Shown here: positions 4,380-10,953 of the stretch, piece by piece
Layout: the number at the start of each line of letters is the position of its first letter
Position numbering within the stretch: the stretch's first letter is position 1
Source of the DNA: Bryobacterales bacterium
GTDB taxonomy: Bacteria > Acidobacteriota > Terriglobia > Bryobacterales > Bryobacteraceae
Reading direction: 5' to 3'
Assembly: GCA_003487005.1 (NCBI GenBank)
Contig: DNFG01000279.1
Coordinates: 1,676-14,277 of the forward strand
Length of the DNA stretch: 12,602 nucleotides
The notes under the pieces: model-generated
What the model was told of the DNA's origin: nothing
Database searches by the model: none
The model's input: only the letters and a program-made list of their open reading frames with translations
Translations under genes and position numbers: made by a program

Positions 4380-7310
4380 TCAGCCGGTCAGGGCCCGGAC
4401 GGCCTCGACGAGCGAAGCGGCGGGTGAGTTGACGGGAATGAATGCATCCGGGCGCAAGGCCGGATGCGGCTCGGAGAGGGTGGCTACCCGGATATGGGGA
4501 AATTCTTCGCGGAAGAAGGCGAGGGCTTCGGACGGAGTGTAGCCGGGCAGTTCGAGCGGGGTGAGGATGAGATCGACCGCGCGGCGGCTTGTATGTTTGA
4601 GGCACTCGGCGCTGGTGGTGGCGAGAATGGTCGCGTAGCCGGCTTCGCGGAGTATGATGTTCAACTCATCTCGGGTGGGGCCCGAGGGCGCGGCGAGCAG
4701 GACGCAGCGCGGGCGGAGCGGGGCGTCGAGGACCTCTCGCACCTTGCGGCCGAGCGAATCGGGGGTGAAGGGTTTGGGGAGGAAGTTGAGTCCGGCGTCG
4801 AGCACGCCGTGATGGACGATGGCGTTTTCGGTATAGCCGGAGATGAAGAGAACGCGCATCTGGGGCCGTCGGGGTGCGAGGCGTTGGGCGACTTCGCGGC
4901 CGCTCAGGCGGGGCAGGACGACATCGCTCAACAGCAGGTCGATGTGGCTGGCGCTGTCGGCCATCTCCAGCGCGGCGTTGCCGTCTTCAGCCTCGATCAC
5001 CCGGTAGCCGAGATCCTCGAGCACCGTGCGGGTGAACCGGCGGACGCGTTCGTCATCCTCGACGAGGAGGATCGTCTCGGTGCCGGTGGCCGCGGGGGTG
5101 GAAAGCGGTGCTTCATCCGGGGGAGGGGTCTCACCGGGAAGGGCCTCGGCCGCGGGGAGGTAGACCTTCATGGTGGTGCCGATGCCCGGTTCGCTATAGA
5201 CGCTCATCTGGCCGCCGCTTTGCTTGACGATGCCGTAGACCATCGGCAGGCCGAGGCCGGTGCCGCGGCCGCGCGGCTTGGTGGTGAAAAAAGGCTCGAA
5301 GACGCGGGCCAAGGTGGCGGCATCCATGCCGTGGCCGGAGTCGGTGACGGTCAACAGAACGTGGGGCCCTGGCTGGTACCCGGCATGAGTGGCGGCGAAG
5401 TCTTCGTCCAGCATCACATTGAATGTCTCGATGACGATGCGGCCGTGACGGCCCTCCATGGCATCGCGGGCATTGATGACGAGGTTCAGCAGGACGTGCT
5501 CGAACTGCGCGGCGTCGGCCCGGACGAGTGCCAGATCAGGGGAGAGCCCGAGCGCGATCTCGTGGCTCTCGGGCGTGATGCGCCGCAGCATCGGCTCGAC
5601 ACGATGGACGATCTGATTGAGGCTGAGCAGTTCCGGCTGAAGGACCTGCCTGCGGCTGAAGGCGAGGAGTTGGGTGGTCAGCAGGGCGGCGCGATTACCG
5701 GCCTGTTCGATGGCCGCGAGCATCGGTTCGAAGTTGGTGCCGGCGGCACTCCGGCGGCCGATTTCGGCATAGCCATTGATGACAGTGAGGAGGTTGTTGA
5801 AGTCGTGAGCGATCCCGCCGGCGAGTTCGCCGATCGCCTCCATCTTCTGGGCCTGGCGCAGCTGTTCCTCGAGCTTGCGCTCCTGTGTGACATCGATGGC
5901 GACGGAGAGGCGCGCCGGACGGCCGGCGAGAGGGAGTGGATGCGACCAGCCTCTCACGATCATCTCGGAGCCGTCCTTGTGGCGGTGTTTCCAAAGCCCC
6001 GAGCGGGGACCGGGCTGACGGTTGGTGATCAGCCGTGAGTAGGCGAGGTCCTTCTCATCGGGATGGACGAGATCAAAAACAGTGAGGCACAGGAATTCTT
6101 CCCGCGTGTAGCCGTAGTGACGCAGAGCGGCCTCGTTCACGGCCAGCATCTGGTAGGTTTCGTCGTCGTACATCCACATCTGCTGGGGGTTCTGGTCGAA
6201 GATGAGGCGGTAGCGCTCTTCGCTCTCCAGCAGACCGCTTTCCGTCTCAACGTGAGCGGTGATGTCGCGAGCGACGGCAAATCCGATGTTCTCTTCGGCG
6301 GACCAGGCGGAAGACCAGTCGAGGTGGACGAGGTGCCCATCCTTGTGGCGAAGGCGATTACGAAAGCTGCTGACTGCCTGGCCCGACTGAATGCCGGCCG
6401 CAATTGCGCGGGTTGCCTCCAGGTCTTCGGGCGCAACGAGATCAAACAGGGCCGCGCCCCGCATCTCCTCCGGGGTGTATCCCAGGATTCGTTCGACCGC
6501 TTTGCTCACGGTCCGGTAGCGGCCATCCGCGGTCCAGGTGCAGATCATGTCGCGCGAGCTGTCGGCGATGCGGTGGAGCCGGTTCAGGGCCTGGCGAAGC
6601 TGGGCCTCGACCTGTTCGAGATGCTCGGTTCGCTCACGCTGGCCGGTGGTGTCGGAGAACATGACCGCGAGTTCATCCCCGCTCCGGAAGACTTTGACGT
6701 GGAACCAGCCCCCAAGCTGAGCACAGTTGGCCTCGTAATCCGTGGAAACGCCTGTTTCAAAGACCTGCCGGCACGCCAGGTCCAGCTGGCTTCCGGTCGA
6801 TTCATGCAGGACGTCGAGCAGGTGGCGTCCCGTCAGGCCGGAGGGCAGCGCGCCGAGCATGCTTGCTCCGTGACGGTTGACGTAGGTGATCCGCCAGTCG
6901 CGATCGAGCATCAGGACGCCATTGTCGATGGATTCGAGCATGTGGCGGAAGCGCGGCGCCGCGCTGGTGAGCCAGCCCGCCGCGAGCAGGGCCGCGACTT
7001 CCTCCAGTCCATCCTCACAGGTGGTGCAACGGGCGGCCAGAGTCAGTCCGGGCGCACCCGGGATGGGGATCCGGACCAGCGGTTCATGGGCGTGCCAGGG
7101 ATGGGGAGTGGCCGCATCCGCACTGGAGTGCCATTCCGGGCGGGCGCCCGCGGCAATCAGCCACTCGCCGGGATCTCCGTCGAGGTCCGTTGTCCAGGCA
7201 ACTCCGGCGAATCCGCCAGTGAGCCGGGCGGCCAGGGCCGCGGCGTGTTGGGAGACCACCAGCATGGCCGGGGTGTCCCAGGCTGGATCGACCGGTACGG
7301 GAGGCGCCAT
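4380..7310 (-). CDS. Cytoplasmic hybrid sensor histidine kinase with three PAS domains and two receiver domains (the second degenerate)
   Basis: This 976-residue kinase has no transmembrane segment, so it should sense a cytoplasmic signal. Its layout is an N-terminal region of unknown or GAF-like type (1-118); PAS1 (about 119-222); a short coiled coil (224-246); PAS2 (about 244-355) and PAS3 (about 363-476), both ending in the usual D(I/V)T motif; and HisKA with phospho-acceptor His502 in [11 protein letters not shown]. The ATPase domain follows with N-box Asn613 in [11 protein letters not shown]1 DSGHGM (657-662), EPFFTTK (672-678) and G2 GRGTGLGL (681-688). Receiver 1 (745-862) has acidic Asp752/Asp753, phospho-site Asp796 and Lys846. 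Residues 867-976 look like a second receiver that has lost these residues. The gene lies 25 bp downstream of ymdB and is probably cotranscribed. It converges on the EEP gene with a 4-bp gap. No separate output regulator is adjacent, so its phosphorelay partner is unknown. Confidence 0.92.
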
Positions 7311-7335: not shown

Positions 7336-8133
7336 TCAGGCATCCGGGTGGCCGGATTCCCCGATGGCCAAAGCCTCGATGGAAGTGGCGCGGCCGGTTG
7401 ATTCGTCGATTGTCACAATCGCCCCGTGCAGTTCCAGTCCGGCCTTGGCCGCCTCGAAGCGCATCGGCAGTTGCGTGAGGAAGCGCTGAACAATCATCTT
7501 CTTCTCCACGCCGATCACGGAATCATAGGGCCCCGTCATCCCGCTGTCGGTCTGATAGGCTGTGCCGCCTGGCAGGATGCGGGCATCGGCGGTGGGGATA
7601 TGCGTGTGCGTGCCGATCAACGCCGAGATCCTCCCGTCGAGGTGCCAGCCCAGCGCCATCTTTTCGCTGGTGACCTCGGCGTGGAAATCCACGAAGATCA
7701 CTTTGACCTCCGGAGGCAGAGTGGCGAGGAGTTCGTCGGCCTTGCGGAACGGACACTCCAACGGGGGCAGATGCACGCGCCCCTGCAGATTCAGCACGGC
7801 ATAGGGCACGCCATTGCGCGCGACACCCTGATACAGGCCGGTGCCGGGCAGTTCGGCGGCATAGTTGGCGGGACGCAGCAGTCGAGGCTGCCGGGCGAAA
7901 TGATCATAGATATCGCGCTTGTCCCAGACGTGGTTGCCGGTGGTGATTACGTCGAGGCCCAGGCTGAGCAGTTCTTCGGTGATCGGGGGCGTGATGCCAA
8001 CCCCGCCGGCGGCATTTTCGCCGTTCGCGATGGCCAGATCGATCTTCTGTTCGGTGATCAGTCGTTGCAGGTGGGCCGCCACCATGCGGCGTCCGCCGGA
8101 TGCGAAGATATCGCCAATAAAGAGGAGCTTCAT
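7336..8133 (-). CDS. ymdB: YmdB family metallophosphoesterase (cyclic nucleotide phosphodiesterase)
   Basis: The predicted product is 265 residues, against 264 for Bacillus subtilis YmdB, a binuclear-metal phosphodiesterase acting on 2',3'-cyclic nucleotides. The start MKLLFIGDIF at 8133 is chosen because the family begins at this strand. A longer in-frame reading to 8235 adds 34 non-family residues and runs into the 6S RNA gene. All metal and catalytic residues fall at or within one position of the B. subtilis numbering: Asp8 (GDIF), Glu39-Asn40 (ANGENAAG), Asn67-His68 (TTGNHVWD), His151 (DFHAEVTSEK), His176 and His178 (GTHTHIPTAD). No good ribosome binding site precedes the start. In firmicutes ymdB often follows rny (RNase Y), but here it follows a 6S RNA gene instead. 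The hybrid kinase gene starts 25 bp downstream. The biochemical call is strong, while the cellular role in this organism is unknown. Confidence 0.93.
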   Translation of the reverse strand: MKLLFIGDIFASGGRRMVAAHLQRLITEQKIDLAIANGENAAGGVGITPPITEELLSLGLDVITTGNHVWDKRDIYDHFARQPRLLRPANYAAELPGTGLYQGVARNGVPYAVLNLQGRVHLPPLECPFRKADELLATLPPEVKVIFVDFHAEVTSEKMALGWHLDGRISALIGTHTHIPTADARILPGGTAYQTDSGMTGPYDSVIGVEKKMIVQRFLTQLPMRFEAAKAGLELHGAIVTIDESTGRATSIEALAIGESGHPDA

Positions 8134-8170
8134 AGGAGCAGGGGCCCGGGCAGGGAACCCGGAAAGATGT

Positions 8171-8357
8171 GGAGCGCCCCGCGCGGCCGTGCCAGTCCCT
8201 GAATCGACCCCGACAAAAACACGGGGGGAGCCCACCGAGCGCCTTCAGGCTTCTCCTTGCGGAGCATGCTCACCGGCGCTTCATACGAGTCAGACTCCGG
8301 ATTCAATGATATCGGATCAATTTATGGAACCAGTCACCTGCTTTGCAGCAGCGCTCC
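8171..8357 (-). ncRNA. ssrS: 6S RNA, regulator of sigma-70 RNA polymerase
   Basis: This is about 187 nt of RNA read leftward, close to the 184 nt of E. coli 6S RNA. Its apical part, GGTGAGCATGCTC (8274-8262) followed by GAGAAGCCT (8255-8247), matches the E. coli apex nearly base for base. Pairings traced by hand: closing stem 8351-8357 with 8171-8177 (7 bp, perfect); CTGGTTCC (8333-8326) with GGGACTGG (8199-8192), plus GTG/CAC beyond one bulge; TTGATCC (8320-8314) with GGGTCGA (8210-8204); an internal bubble near 8301-8313 opposite 8211-8226; then 8293-8298 with 8227-8232; 8275-8280 with 8238-8243; and a CTCC-GCAA-GGAG tip (8256-8253 with 8264-8261). The bubble mimics an open promoter and traps the sigma-70 holoenzyme, chiefly in stationary phase. 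The exact ends are uncertain by several bases. The gene sits between sua5 and ymdB. Confidence 0.9.
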
Positions 8358-8366
8358 CTGCCAGTC

Positions 8367-8372
8367 AGGATA
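8367..8372 (-). promoter_or_regulatory. Possible -10 element for the 6S RNA
   Basis: TATCCT read leftward ends about 8 bases before the predicted 5' end of the 6S RNA (about 8358-8359), the right place for a -10 hexamer. No matching -35 (TTGACA-like) lies 16-18 bp upstream, so the promoter is only partly supported. The 52 bases between the sua5 stop and the RNA leave room for one. Confidence 0.35.
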
Positions 8373-8397
8373 ACCCATCGCGCGCCCGTTTTGCGCG

Positions 8398-8419
8398 AAA
8401 AAATGAGGCTCAGGCGCCT
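8398..8419 (-). terminator. Weak intrinsic terminator at the end of sua5
   Basis: Read leftward, a short stem AGGC/GCCT with a six-base loop that spans the sua5 stop codon is followed by CA and six T residues. The stem is only 4 bp, so it would terminate poorly. The run of T and its placement just upstream of the 6S RNA gene make it worth recording. Confidence 0.3.
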
Positions 8420-9048
8420 TCCAGGCACTCGGCGATCTCTCGCTCGGTGACCGTGCCGGACTTGATGATCCGCCAGTAGGGCTCCGTGATATCCACCGTT
8501 GTGGACCCATGCCCGACACAGTGGCCGCCATCCAGCACCAGGTCCACGCGGCCGTCCATGGTTCCAAAGACCTCGATCCCGCTGGAGCACGTCGGTTGTC
8601 CGCTGACATTGGCTGACGTGGCGATCAGCGGCTGTCCCAGCCAGTCGATCAGCGCCTGCGCCACCCTCGACCGGGACTGACGCAGCGCCAGTCGGCCCGT
8701 GTTGCCGGTCACCTTCAAGGGAATCTTCGCCGAGGCCGGCACGATGATGGACAAAGGCCCCGGCCAGAAGTGACGGGCCAGCAGGTAGAACCGCGCCGGC
8801 AGTTCCGTCACCAGTTCCTCGGCCATCAGGAAATCACTGACCAGCAGGGGCAGGGACCGGTGCTGTTCGCGGCCTTTCGCGGCGAAGACCCGGCCCACGG
8901 CGTGCAGGTTGAAGGGATCCGCCACCAGCGTGTAGAGCGAATCCGTTGGGATAGCGAGAACATCACCGCGCCGGATCGCGATGGCGGCGCGTTCAACAGC
9001 CTCCACGCTCGGCTGCTGCGGATCGATTTCTATCAGGTCGGTGGCCAC
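8410..9048 (-). CDS. L-threonylcarbamoyladenylate synthase (Sua5/YciO/YrdC/TsaC family)
   Basis: This family makes threonylcarbamoyl-AMP from threonine, bicarbonate and ATP, the first step of the t6A37 modification of ANN-decoding tRNAs in the cytosol. The product is 212 residues, the short TsaC-like form without the extra Sua5 C-terminal domain. Visible motifs are IPTDSLYTLVADP (33-45), KGREQHRSLPLLV (58-70), FWPGPLS (94-100), GRLALRQ (118-124), IATSANVSG (142-150) and GSTTVD (181-186), together covering the ATP and threonine pocket of the family. The start is GTG at 9048. It is the only reasonable choice, because the metHF stop codon is in frame 24 bp upstream and no ATG occurs before residue 75. 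A GAGAGG lies 15 bases before it, rather far for a ribosome binding site and partly locked in a 5-bp hairpin (9056-9069). Translational coupling to the gene upstream is therefore likely. Confidence 0.92.
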   Translation of the reverse strand: MATDLIEIDPQQPSVEAVERAAIAIRRGDVLAIPTDSLYTLVADPFNLHAVGRVFAAKGREQHRSLPLLVSDFLMAEELVTELPARFYLLARHFWPGPLSIIVPASAKIPLKVTGNTGRLALRQSRSRVAQALIDWLGQPLIATSANVSGQPTCSSGIEVFGTMDGRVDLVLDGGHCVGHGSTTVDITEPYWRIIKSGTVTEREIAECLEGA

Positions 9049-9072: not shown

Positions 9073-10953
9073 TTACCGCGGCCCGATCACCCCGGCAACT
9101 TCGACCGCCATCTCGTAGCGGCCGAACGGCGCACTCAATTGCACCCCTTCGACCAGCGGGCGCACCTGAGTCACCATCTCCTTCGCGATCGCCACCCCCT
9201 CGGCCCGCGCGGCTTCCGGGTTCGCCGCGGCCCGCATTCGTTCCATGTACGCCTCCGGCACCGGCACCCGCAGCTCATTCACCATGAACTCGGCGTTCCG
9301 GTAGCTCGTCAACGGCCAGATGCCCGCGATGACGGGAATGCGAAACTCGCGGATCCGCTCCAGAAAGTTCTCGATCAGCGCGAGGTCGAATACCGGCTGC
9401 GTCACGATAAATTCCGCCCCGGCTTCCACCTTCCAGCGCGTGCGCTTGATCTCTTCGTCCATGTTCAACGCGCCGGGGTTCGCGCCCACGCCCAGCAGCA
9501 GCGCCGTCTGCGAGCCGATCGGGTTGCCGCCGATATCGAGGCCGTGATTCAGGTTGTTGACGATGTTCGCCAGCCCGATGGCATCCACGTCAAACACCGC
9601 GGTGGCGTCCGGATAGGCGCCCATCCGCGGCGGATCGCCCGTGATACAGATCAGGTTGCGAATCCCCGCGGCGTGCGCCCCCAGCAGTTCACTCTGAATG
9701 CTCAGAATGTTCCGGTCGCGGCAGCAGAAGTGCAACACGCTCTCGATGCCGGCTTCGCGCTCGATCAACTGGCAGGTGACCTGCGCGCTCATCCGCGCCG
9801 ACGCGCGCGGCCCGTCCGGCACATTGATCGCGTCAATTCCATGGTCCTTGCACAGCCGCGCTCCGAGGATCTCCTTCGCCGGATCCACCCCGCGCGGCGG
9901 CAGGATCTCGACGAACGCCACGAACTGCCCCGCCGCGATCTTCGCGCCGAGCGTGGACTTGTCCGCCACCGCCACCTTCTCCATCGCCTGCGCTTTCGCC
10001 TTCGGCTCCTCGACGGTCACCTGCAGCGACCGCTGACCCGGTTGCAGGCTCCGCGCTTCGCTGCGAATGCTCCGGATGTGCTCCGGCGTGGTGCCGCAGC
10101 AGCCTCCGACGATCCGGACCCCCGCCCACAGCATCCGCCGCGCGTACTGCGACATGTATTCCGGACTGCTCAAATAGATGTTCCGGCCTTCCACCTTCGT
10201 CGGGTGGCCCGCGTTCGGCAACGCGCTCAAGGGCTTCTTCGTTAGCGCGAGCATCCGCTCCACCGCCTCGAACATCGCCTTGGGCCCCACCGAGCAGTTC
10301 AGGCCGATCACGTCCGCGGGCGATTCGTCGAGGAACCGGGTGAAATCCTCGAGTTCGGTCCCATCCAGCAGCCGCCCGTCGTCGCCGATGGTCATCTGCG
10401 CCACCAGCACCAGATCCGGCCCCGCCGCGGCCCGCGCCGCCGCCAGCGCCTCTCTCAACTCCGTCACGGAGCCGAAAGTCTCCATCAGGACCAGGTCCAC
10501 TCCCGCTTCCACCAACACTTCCGCCTGTTCGGCGAAGTAACGCCGCGCTTCCTCGAACGACGTGGGCCCCAGCGGCTCAATGTGCAACCCCAGCGGTCCC
10601 ATTGATCCGGCCACGAAGACGTCCGCCTTTTCACCAGCCGCCGCGCGGGCCAGTTTGACGCCCGCCCGGTTGATCTCGGCGAGCTTGCCGTCAAGACCGA
10701 ACGTCTCCAGACGCGGCCGGCTGGCTCCGTACGTGTTGGTTTCGAGGATCTCCGCCCCCGCCTTCACATATTCTTCGTGAATTTCGCGGATCAAATCCGC
10801 TTGCGAGAGGTTCAATTCGTCAAAGCAGCGGTTGATGAACACGCCGCGTCCGTAGATCATTGTCCCCATCGCGCCATCGGAGACCAGGACACGCTTCGAC
10901 AGGCGCTCGCGGAACTGCGCGGCTCGGGACAGGGATTTCAAAGATTGAGACAT
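9073..10953 (-). CDS. Bifunctional homocysteine S-methyltransferase / 5,10-methylenetetrahydrofolate reductase
   Basis: This 626-residue fusion resembles B. subtilis YitJ. Residues 1-310 form the zinc homocysteine methyltransferase domain. It has DGAMGTM at 26-32, ETNTYGA at 71-77, GSMGPLG at 116-122 and METFGS at 157-162. The three zinc ligands are Cys220 in LNCSVGP and Cys285-Cys286 in GGCCGTTPEH. A Lys/Glu/Ala-rich linker (about 311-335) leads to a MetF-type TIM barrel (336-626), which reduces methylene-THF to methyl-THF with FAD. There Glu349 in FVEILPPR and Asp440 in CITGDPPR match the catalytic Glu28 and Asp120 of E. coli MetF, and FIVTQPVFD is at 515-523. The protein could couple methyl-THF production to methionine synthesis, but it lacks the cobalamin-binding modules of MetH, so the methyl donor of the first domain is uncertain (SAM or S-methylmethionine in related enzymes). 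It lies 46 bp after the DUF62 gene and 24 bp before sua5. The gaps are too short for a SAM riboswitch. Confidence 0.95.
   Translation of the reverse strand: MSQSLKSLSRAAQFRERLSKRVLVSDGAMGTMIYGRGVFINRCFDELNLSQADLIREIHEEYVKAGAEILETNTYGASRPRLETFGLDGKLAEINRAGVKLARAAAGEKADVFVAGSMGPLGLHIEPLGPTSFEEARRYFAEQAEVLVEAGVDLVLMETFGSVTELREALAAARAAAGPDLVLVAQMTIGDDGRLLDGTELEDFTRFLDESPADVIGLNCSVGPKAMFEAVERMLALTKKPLSALPNAGHPTKVEGRNIYLSSPEYMSQYARRMLWAGVRIVGGCCGTTPEHIRSIRSEARSLQPGQRSLQVTVEEPKAKAQAMEKVAVADKSTLGAKIAAGQFVAFVEILPPRGVDPAKEILGARLCKDHGIDAINVPDGPRASARMSAQVTCQLIEREAGIESVLHFCCRDRNILSIQSELLGAHAAGIRNLICITGDPPRMGAYPDATAVFDVDAIGLANIVNNLNHGLDIGGNPIGSQTALLLGVGANPGALNMDEEIKRTRWKVEAGAEFIVTQPVFDLALIENFLERIREFRIPVIAGIWPLTSYRNAEFMVNELRVPVPEAYMERMRAAANPEAARAEGVAIAKEMVTQVRPLVEGVQLSAPFGRYEMAVEVAGVIGPR

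Follow-up and report, generated by a model that had tools for sequence, protein, structure and literature searches.

A 6S RNA gene directly upstream of ymdB in a member of the Bryobacteraceae, and the likely origin of its address

6S RNA is a well-known small RNA that restrains RNA polymerase. In the 12,602-nt stretch of Bryobacterales DNA analysed here (hereafter the window), 276 bp without a protein gene (8134-8409) separate two genes of the minus strand, a Sua5/YciO/YrdC-type gene (sua5; 8410-9048; PF01300, E = 1.4e-46) and ymdB, which encodes a YmdB-like metallophosphoesterase (7336-8133; PF13277, E = 8.1e-102). An earlier note made from the sequence alone had proposed that this gap, whose size is borne out, holds a 6S RNA gene at a site unlike that of its proteobacterial counterparts. 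Is this a true 6S RNA gene, and how did it come to lie before ymdB?

We found that the minus strand of the gap carries a full-length match to the 6S/SsrS covariance model RF00013 (cmscan; 8172-8355, positions 1-187 of 187, 48.5 bits, E = 2.3e-7). The covariance-model check that had been proposed thus gives a significant match, which exceeds the curated Rfam cut-off of 46.4 bits by 2 bits and has several non-standard pairs marked in its alignment. A lineage model (R1), of which the window is one of the ten training sequences, matches 8171-8358 with 195.5 bits. Together the two models delimit a gene of about 187 nt (8171-8358, minus strand), and the coordinates read from the sequence alone were correct to within a few bases. 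RF00013 is the sole Rfam family with a match in the window at E values up to 1, no second RF00013 match was found in the window's genome (4.47 Mb, 84% complete), and the 6S stretch has no match in the plasmid collection at an E value of 1e-5. The likeness to the E. coli apex is exact, as GGTGAGCATGCTC (13 nt; 8262-8274, 5′ side of the apical arm) and GAGAAGCCT (9 nt; 8247-8255, 3′ side), both on the minus strand, are identical in E. coli K-12 ssrS. Likewise, the 7-bp closing stem is present in the sequence, formed by GGAGCGC (8351-8357) and GCGCTCC (8171-8177). The folding stability of the window RNA is unremarkable for its composition (z-score of -1.22; equalled or bettered by 22 of 200 shuffles) and the case therefore rests on homology and covariation.

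In a scan for ymdB relatives, the same RNA was found directly before ymdB in nine of 22 loci (L002-L022 and L026; the 151 bases upstream in L009 are too few to judge the presence of 6S). The window and these nine ymdB-linked loci were aligned (A2, 10 sequences), and their consensus is a 6S hairpin with a closing stem, an apical arm and, as had been read from the window, a paired lower arm and an open central bubble. Among its 56 pairs, 14 show changes on both sides. R1, built from these ten near sequences, was searched against 61 sources; the 40 matches, A2 included, were fitted to the A2 structure (A3). Both-side changes then affect 45 of the 56 pairs, compared with a mean of 23.6 in shuffles (reached by 0 of 500), and 92.5% of cells pair, compared with 80.3% in shuffles. 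For the closing stem (helix 1), all six counted pairs are changed on both sides in some relative and 98.2% of cells are paired.

A further alignment (A4) was made with MAFFT alone from 26 sequences of the family that are not in A2. From these, RNAalifold again folded the closing stem, the upper arm, the apical stem and part of the lower arm. It did not yield the template stem of A2 and A3 but a 3-pair hairpin at the 3′ side of the central bubble. In A4, 23 of 39 pairs show both-side changes (9.6 in shuffles; 0 of 500 shuffles reach this) and 93.6% of cells pair (88.0% in shuffles), a proportion that falls to 42-57% when the partners are slid by 1-3 columns; because A4 supplied its own structure and its members were originally found by RF00013 or R1, these figures have some built-in lean towards 6S. 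Compensatory changes, which the earlier note had asked of relatives, are thus abundant, including among 26 relatives that were not used for the first structure. The GCAA-capped tip that had been described holds for the window and some relatives, while other relatives have a longer apical hairpin. The apical loop of L005, L022, L026 and most A4 sequences contains an additional segment, variable in length, which is absent from the GCAA-capped form of the window. Altogether, window 8171-8358 (minus strand) is almost certainly an ssrS (6S RNA) gene, and the one found in this genome.

In the window, ymdB follows the 6S gene on the same strand, with its start 37 nt past the 6S 3′ end, and sua5 lies 5′ of the 6S gene. 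The longest ymdB reading frame opens at GTG 8235, 34 codons upstream of ATG 8133, and the danger of over-extending ymdB was rightly pointed out. Indeed, of the 80 loci kept from the scan for ymdB relatives, 77 have an alignment to the form starting at ATG 8133 that begins at its residue 1, and the other 3 one that begins at residue 2. This supports ATG 8133 as the predicted start, the 34-codon extension being occupied by the 6S gene. The 6S call is the correct annotation of a gene overlooked by protein-only pipelines, and it protects against a false 34-codon extension of ymdB. A special translation start for ymdB was considered and dropped. In 27 of 29 loci, the 18-base stretch from -22 to -5 ahead of ymdB shows no Shine-Dalgarno-like string, and by eye the sequences upstream of the putative starts of eight other window genes have no clear one either, so that its lack is not peculiar to the ymdB locus; the GAGG of sua5 sits some 15 bases or more before its start. 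Elsewhere in the window, 9073-10953 (minus strand) encodes one 626-aa protein with homocysteine S-methyltransferase and methylenetetrahydrofolate reductase domains, and 4380-7310 (minus strand), directly downstream of ymdB, a hybrid sensor kinase with PAS, HisKA, HATPase and receiver domains, a relative of which is at the same place in L002.

How widespread is this RNA? Our class sample comprised 61 genomes (G000-G060), among them 37 of the window's own family (G000-G036) and 20 order-mates (G037-G056). At E ≤ 0.001, RF00013 matches 27 of the 37 family genomes, of which 5 of 37 pass the Rfam cut-off, and 29 of the whole 61, with six over the cut-off. R1 detects 6S in 32 of 37 family genomes and in 32 of 61 overall, with no match in five family members (G010, G012, G025, G027 and G033) nor in any of the 20 order-mates. 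A re-search with R2, which covered 28 genomes and matched four, found none in these five family members and 17 order-mates, and neither did RF00013 at E values up to 1 in the five and 16 order-mates. In all, 23 unmatched genomes yielded not even a weak 6S when the E value was relaxed to 1 for RF00013 and to 0.1 for R2; some neighbouring lineages appear to have no 6S RNA or one too diverged to detect. In a wider sample of the phylum, RF00013 matches 206 of 297 genomes, 177 of them above the cut-off. The counts in phylum and family together indicate that 6S is widespread in Acidobacteriota and that the form of this family is mostly missed by the Rfam cut-off. Thus, the cut-off overlooks 6S in most of the family genomes sampled, a gap that the lineage model repairs.

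The location of the gene was said to differ from the ssrS-ygfA linkage of Proteobacteria. This is literally true, but the gene orders of relatives suggest that it is probably the same neighbourhood by descent. In E. coli, the order is zapA-ssrS-fau, and the ssrS-fau operon, whose dicistronic transcript is processed, is reported to be widely conserved among Proteobacteria (PMC7641849). In the window, zapA is not directly upstream nor fau directly downstream, these places being taken by sua5 and ymdB; the one zapA match in the window's genome is on another contig (C459), and zapA is present in 35 of 37 relatives. Outside the class, relatives show zapA-6S-rny or 6S-(fau)-rny-ymdB. Indeed, in five loci 6S lies 1.6-2.7 kb upstream of ymdB with rny (RNase Y) in between: L024 and L028 from Desulfobacterales, L027 from Deltaproteobacteria, L029 from Thermoanaerobaculia (Acidobacteriota), and L054. 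In L027 and L054, fau (5-formyltetrahydrofolate cyclo-ligase) is also found between 6S and ymdB; zapA precedes 6S in L024 and L028, was not detected in L029, and the upstream sequence of L027 and L054 is too short to show it. The 30 best-scoring phylum loci (L140-L169), which are not a random sample, cover up to 1.5 kb of flanking sequence per side. Downstream of 6S, 18 of them have rny, three have ymdB (L140, L150 and L159) and nine have neither within reach, while zapA is upstream in 14 and fau was detected in none.

In the class itself, the N-terminal family of RNase Y was not found in any of the 61 genomes sampled, and it was found in 6 of 14 control genomes. ymdB has been kept in the class, as 12 of the 14 searched genomes without an R1 match have it. 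Moreover, zapA stands directly before ymdB in four genomes (G037, G048, G057 and G059) in which no 6S was found, and the intermediate order zapA-6S-ymdB occurs in L150 and L159. Taken together, the relatives bearing rny and zapA, the missing RNase Y and the zapA-ymdB loci are most simply explained if 6S-ymdB is a shrunken neighbourhood. We therefore consider it probable that an older zapA-6S-(fau)-rny-ymdB neighbourhood lost rny, that zapA moved elsewhere, and that the pair is what was left, a reading that is drawn from gene orders, all five genes being together in no single locus. The simplest reading is that this old neighbourhood was worn down differently in each lineage, Bryobacteraceae keeping 6S-ymdB, which ties the link between the two genes to the E. 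coli context.

A true 6S gene might also have been placed before ymdB by an independent insertion. The genes upstream do differ among 6S loci, and sua5 is followed by ymdB without 6S between them in L011, L013, L014 and L015 and in two family members without a 6S match, G025 (L175) and G033 (L176), where the two genes adjoin directly. The arrangement in G025 and G033 fits local loss, but it also fits late insertion elsewhere. Against insertion, order and strand are as in the larger neighbourhood, intermediates exist for both zapA-6S-ymdB and zapA-ymdB, and RNase Y is missing from the whole class sample. Altogether, we regard an independent insertion as improbable and retain the shrinkage of an older neighbourhood.

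Does the gene have signals of its own? Upstream of the 6S gene, TATCCT (8367-8372, minus strand) is a probable -10 promoter element. We examined 36 loci, 30 from the 32 R1-matched family genomes (G034, whose locus is cut by a contig end, and G016 were left out) and six from the scan for ymdB relatives. In 33 of the 36, the model start is preceded at a distance of 3-11 bases by a TANNNT hexamer, a pattern picked after the sequences were viewed; in these loci, 2.8% of 10,324 control positions have one. This -10-like hexamer points to a housekeeping-type promoter that probably belongs to the 6S gene itself. Beside the central bubble, TTGATCCGAT (8311-8320, minus strand) is the likely template of the pRNA, a position which we assign by analogy with E. 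coli. The TTGATCC at this likely template is invariant in A2 (10/10), and A4 conserves it too apart from a few sequences, L107, L108 and L116 among them. By the same analogy, a pRNA made from the window template would likely begin with AUCGGAUCAA. We do not claim the closing stem as an intrinsic terminator; no T-rich tract follows it in the window, and such tracts are found after it in some relatives (L102, L116 and L132).

The nearness to ymdB raises the question of whether the structure serves ymdB. ymdB follows 6S in 29 of 36 loci; six of these loci were chosen through ymdB, and the unbiased figure for the linkage is thus 23 of the 30 family genomes with a usable locus. In the 29 linked loci, ymdB begins a short way past the 6S 3′ end (11-186 nt, median 28), which suggests read-through into ymdB and would suit a cis-acting leader, riboswitch-like or an attenuator, in place of a free 6S RNA. 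Nonetheless, ymdB was not found within about 1.5 kb in 7 of the 30 family genomes (G004, G006, G009, G022, G024, G028 and G032), which carry the RNA all the same, and this speaks against a purely cis-acting leader. Since the full 6S model is matched, a -10-like element is present upstream, and rny is the downstream gene in 18 of the 30 best-scoring phylum loci, we hold a leader to be very unlikely. As for a chance match or an eroded 6S pseudogene, the narrow excess of 2 bits over the cut-off and the folding z-score of -1.22 weigh little against the RF00013 E value of 2.3e-7, the covariation in relatives, the conserved apex, template and promoter-like hexamer and the status of sole copy found in the genome, so that we give it practically no credence.

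The mimicry of an open promoter by 6S RNA, its occupation of the polymerase and its pRNA-driven release are established in E. coli and B. subtilis. By analogy, the 6S gene of Bryobacteraceae would be transcribed from its own housekeeping-type promoter, with TATCCT as the predicted -10 element, into an RNA of about 187 nt expected to fold into a long hairpin whose central bubble would imitate an open promoter. This RNA may bind the housekeeping RNA polymerase holoenzyme and curb transcription as growth slows; synthesis by the polymerase of a short pRNA, predicted to begin AUCGGAUCAA, on the template beside the bubble would then release the 6S RNA. Promoter use, polymerase binding and pRNA release in this family are presumed from these models, as are the expression of the window 6S and its pRNA synthesis. 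It is also conceivable, if rather doubtful, that 6S and ymdB form a two-gene transcription unit in Bryobacteraceae, in which read-through past the closing stem supplies the ymdB mRNA. The level of the YmdB phosphodiesterase would then depend on how much 6S is made, and so on growth phase, in a class that seems to have lost RNase Y, whose gene separates 6S from ymdB in relatives.

Altogether, the gene is an ordinary new family member in Acidobacteriota, a phylum where 6S is common. Like E. coli ssrS (183 nt, compared with about 187 nt here) it forms a 6S hairpin, shares with it identical apex strings of 13 and 9 nt, and has CCGATAT at the likely template as E. coli does. It differs at most other positions, by having ymdB and not fau as the downstream gene, and by zapA not being adjacent. 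The 6S genes of other Acidobacteriota (L140-L169 and L029) are full-length RF00013 matches, as is that of the window, and lie upstream of rny or ymdB on the same strand in 21 of the 30 best-scoring loci and in L029. These 30 score higher, however (86-117 bits versus 48.5 bits), and, unlike in the window, rny follows 6S in 18 of them and in L029. With respect to the RF00013 model itself, the window is full-length and above the cut-off, yet its family is mostly below it (5 of 37 over). What this locus adds to the known systems is modest: it shows that the Rfam cut-off suits this family poorly, and it offers a way to explain the 6S address.
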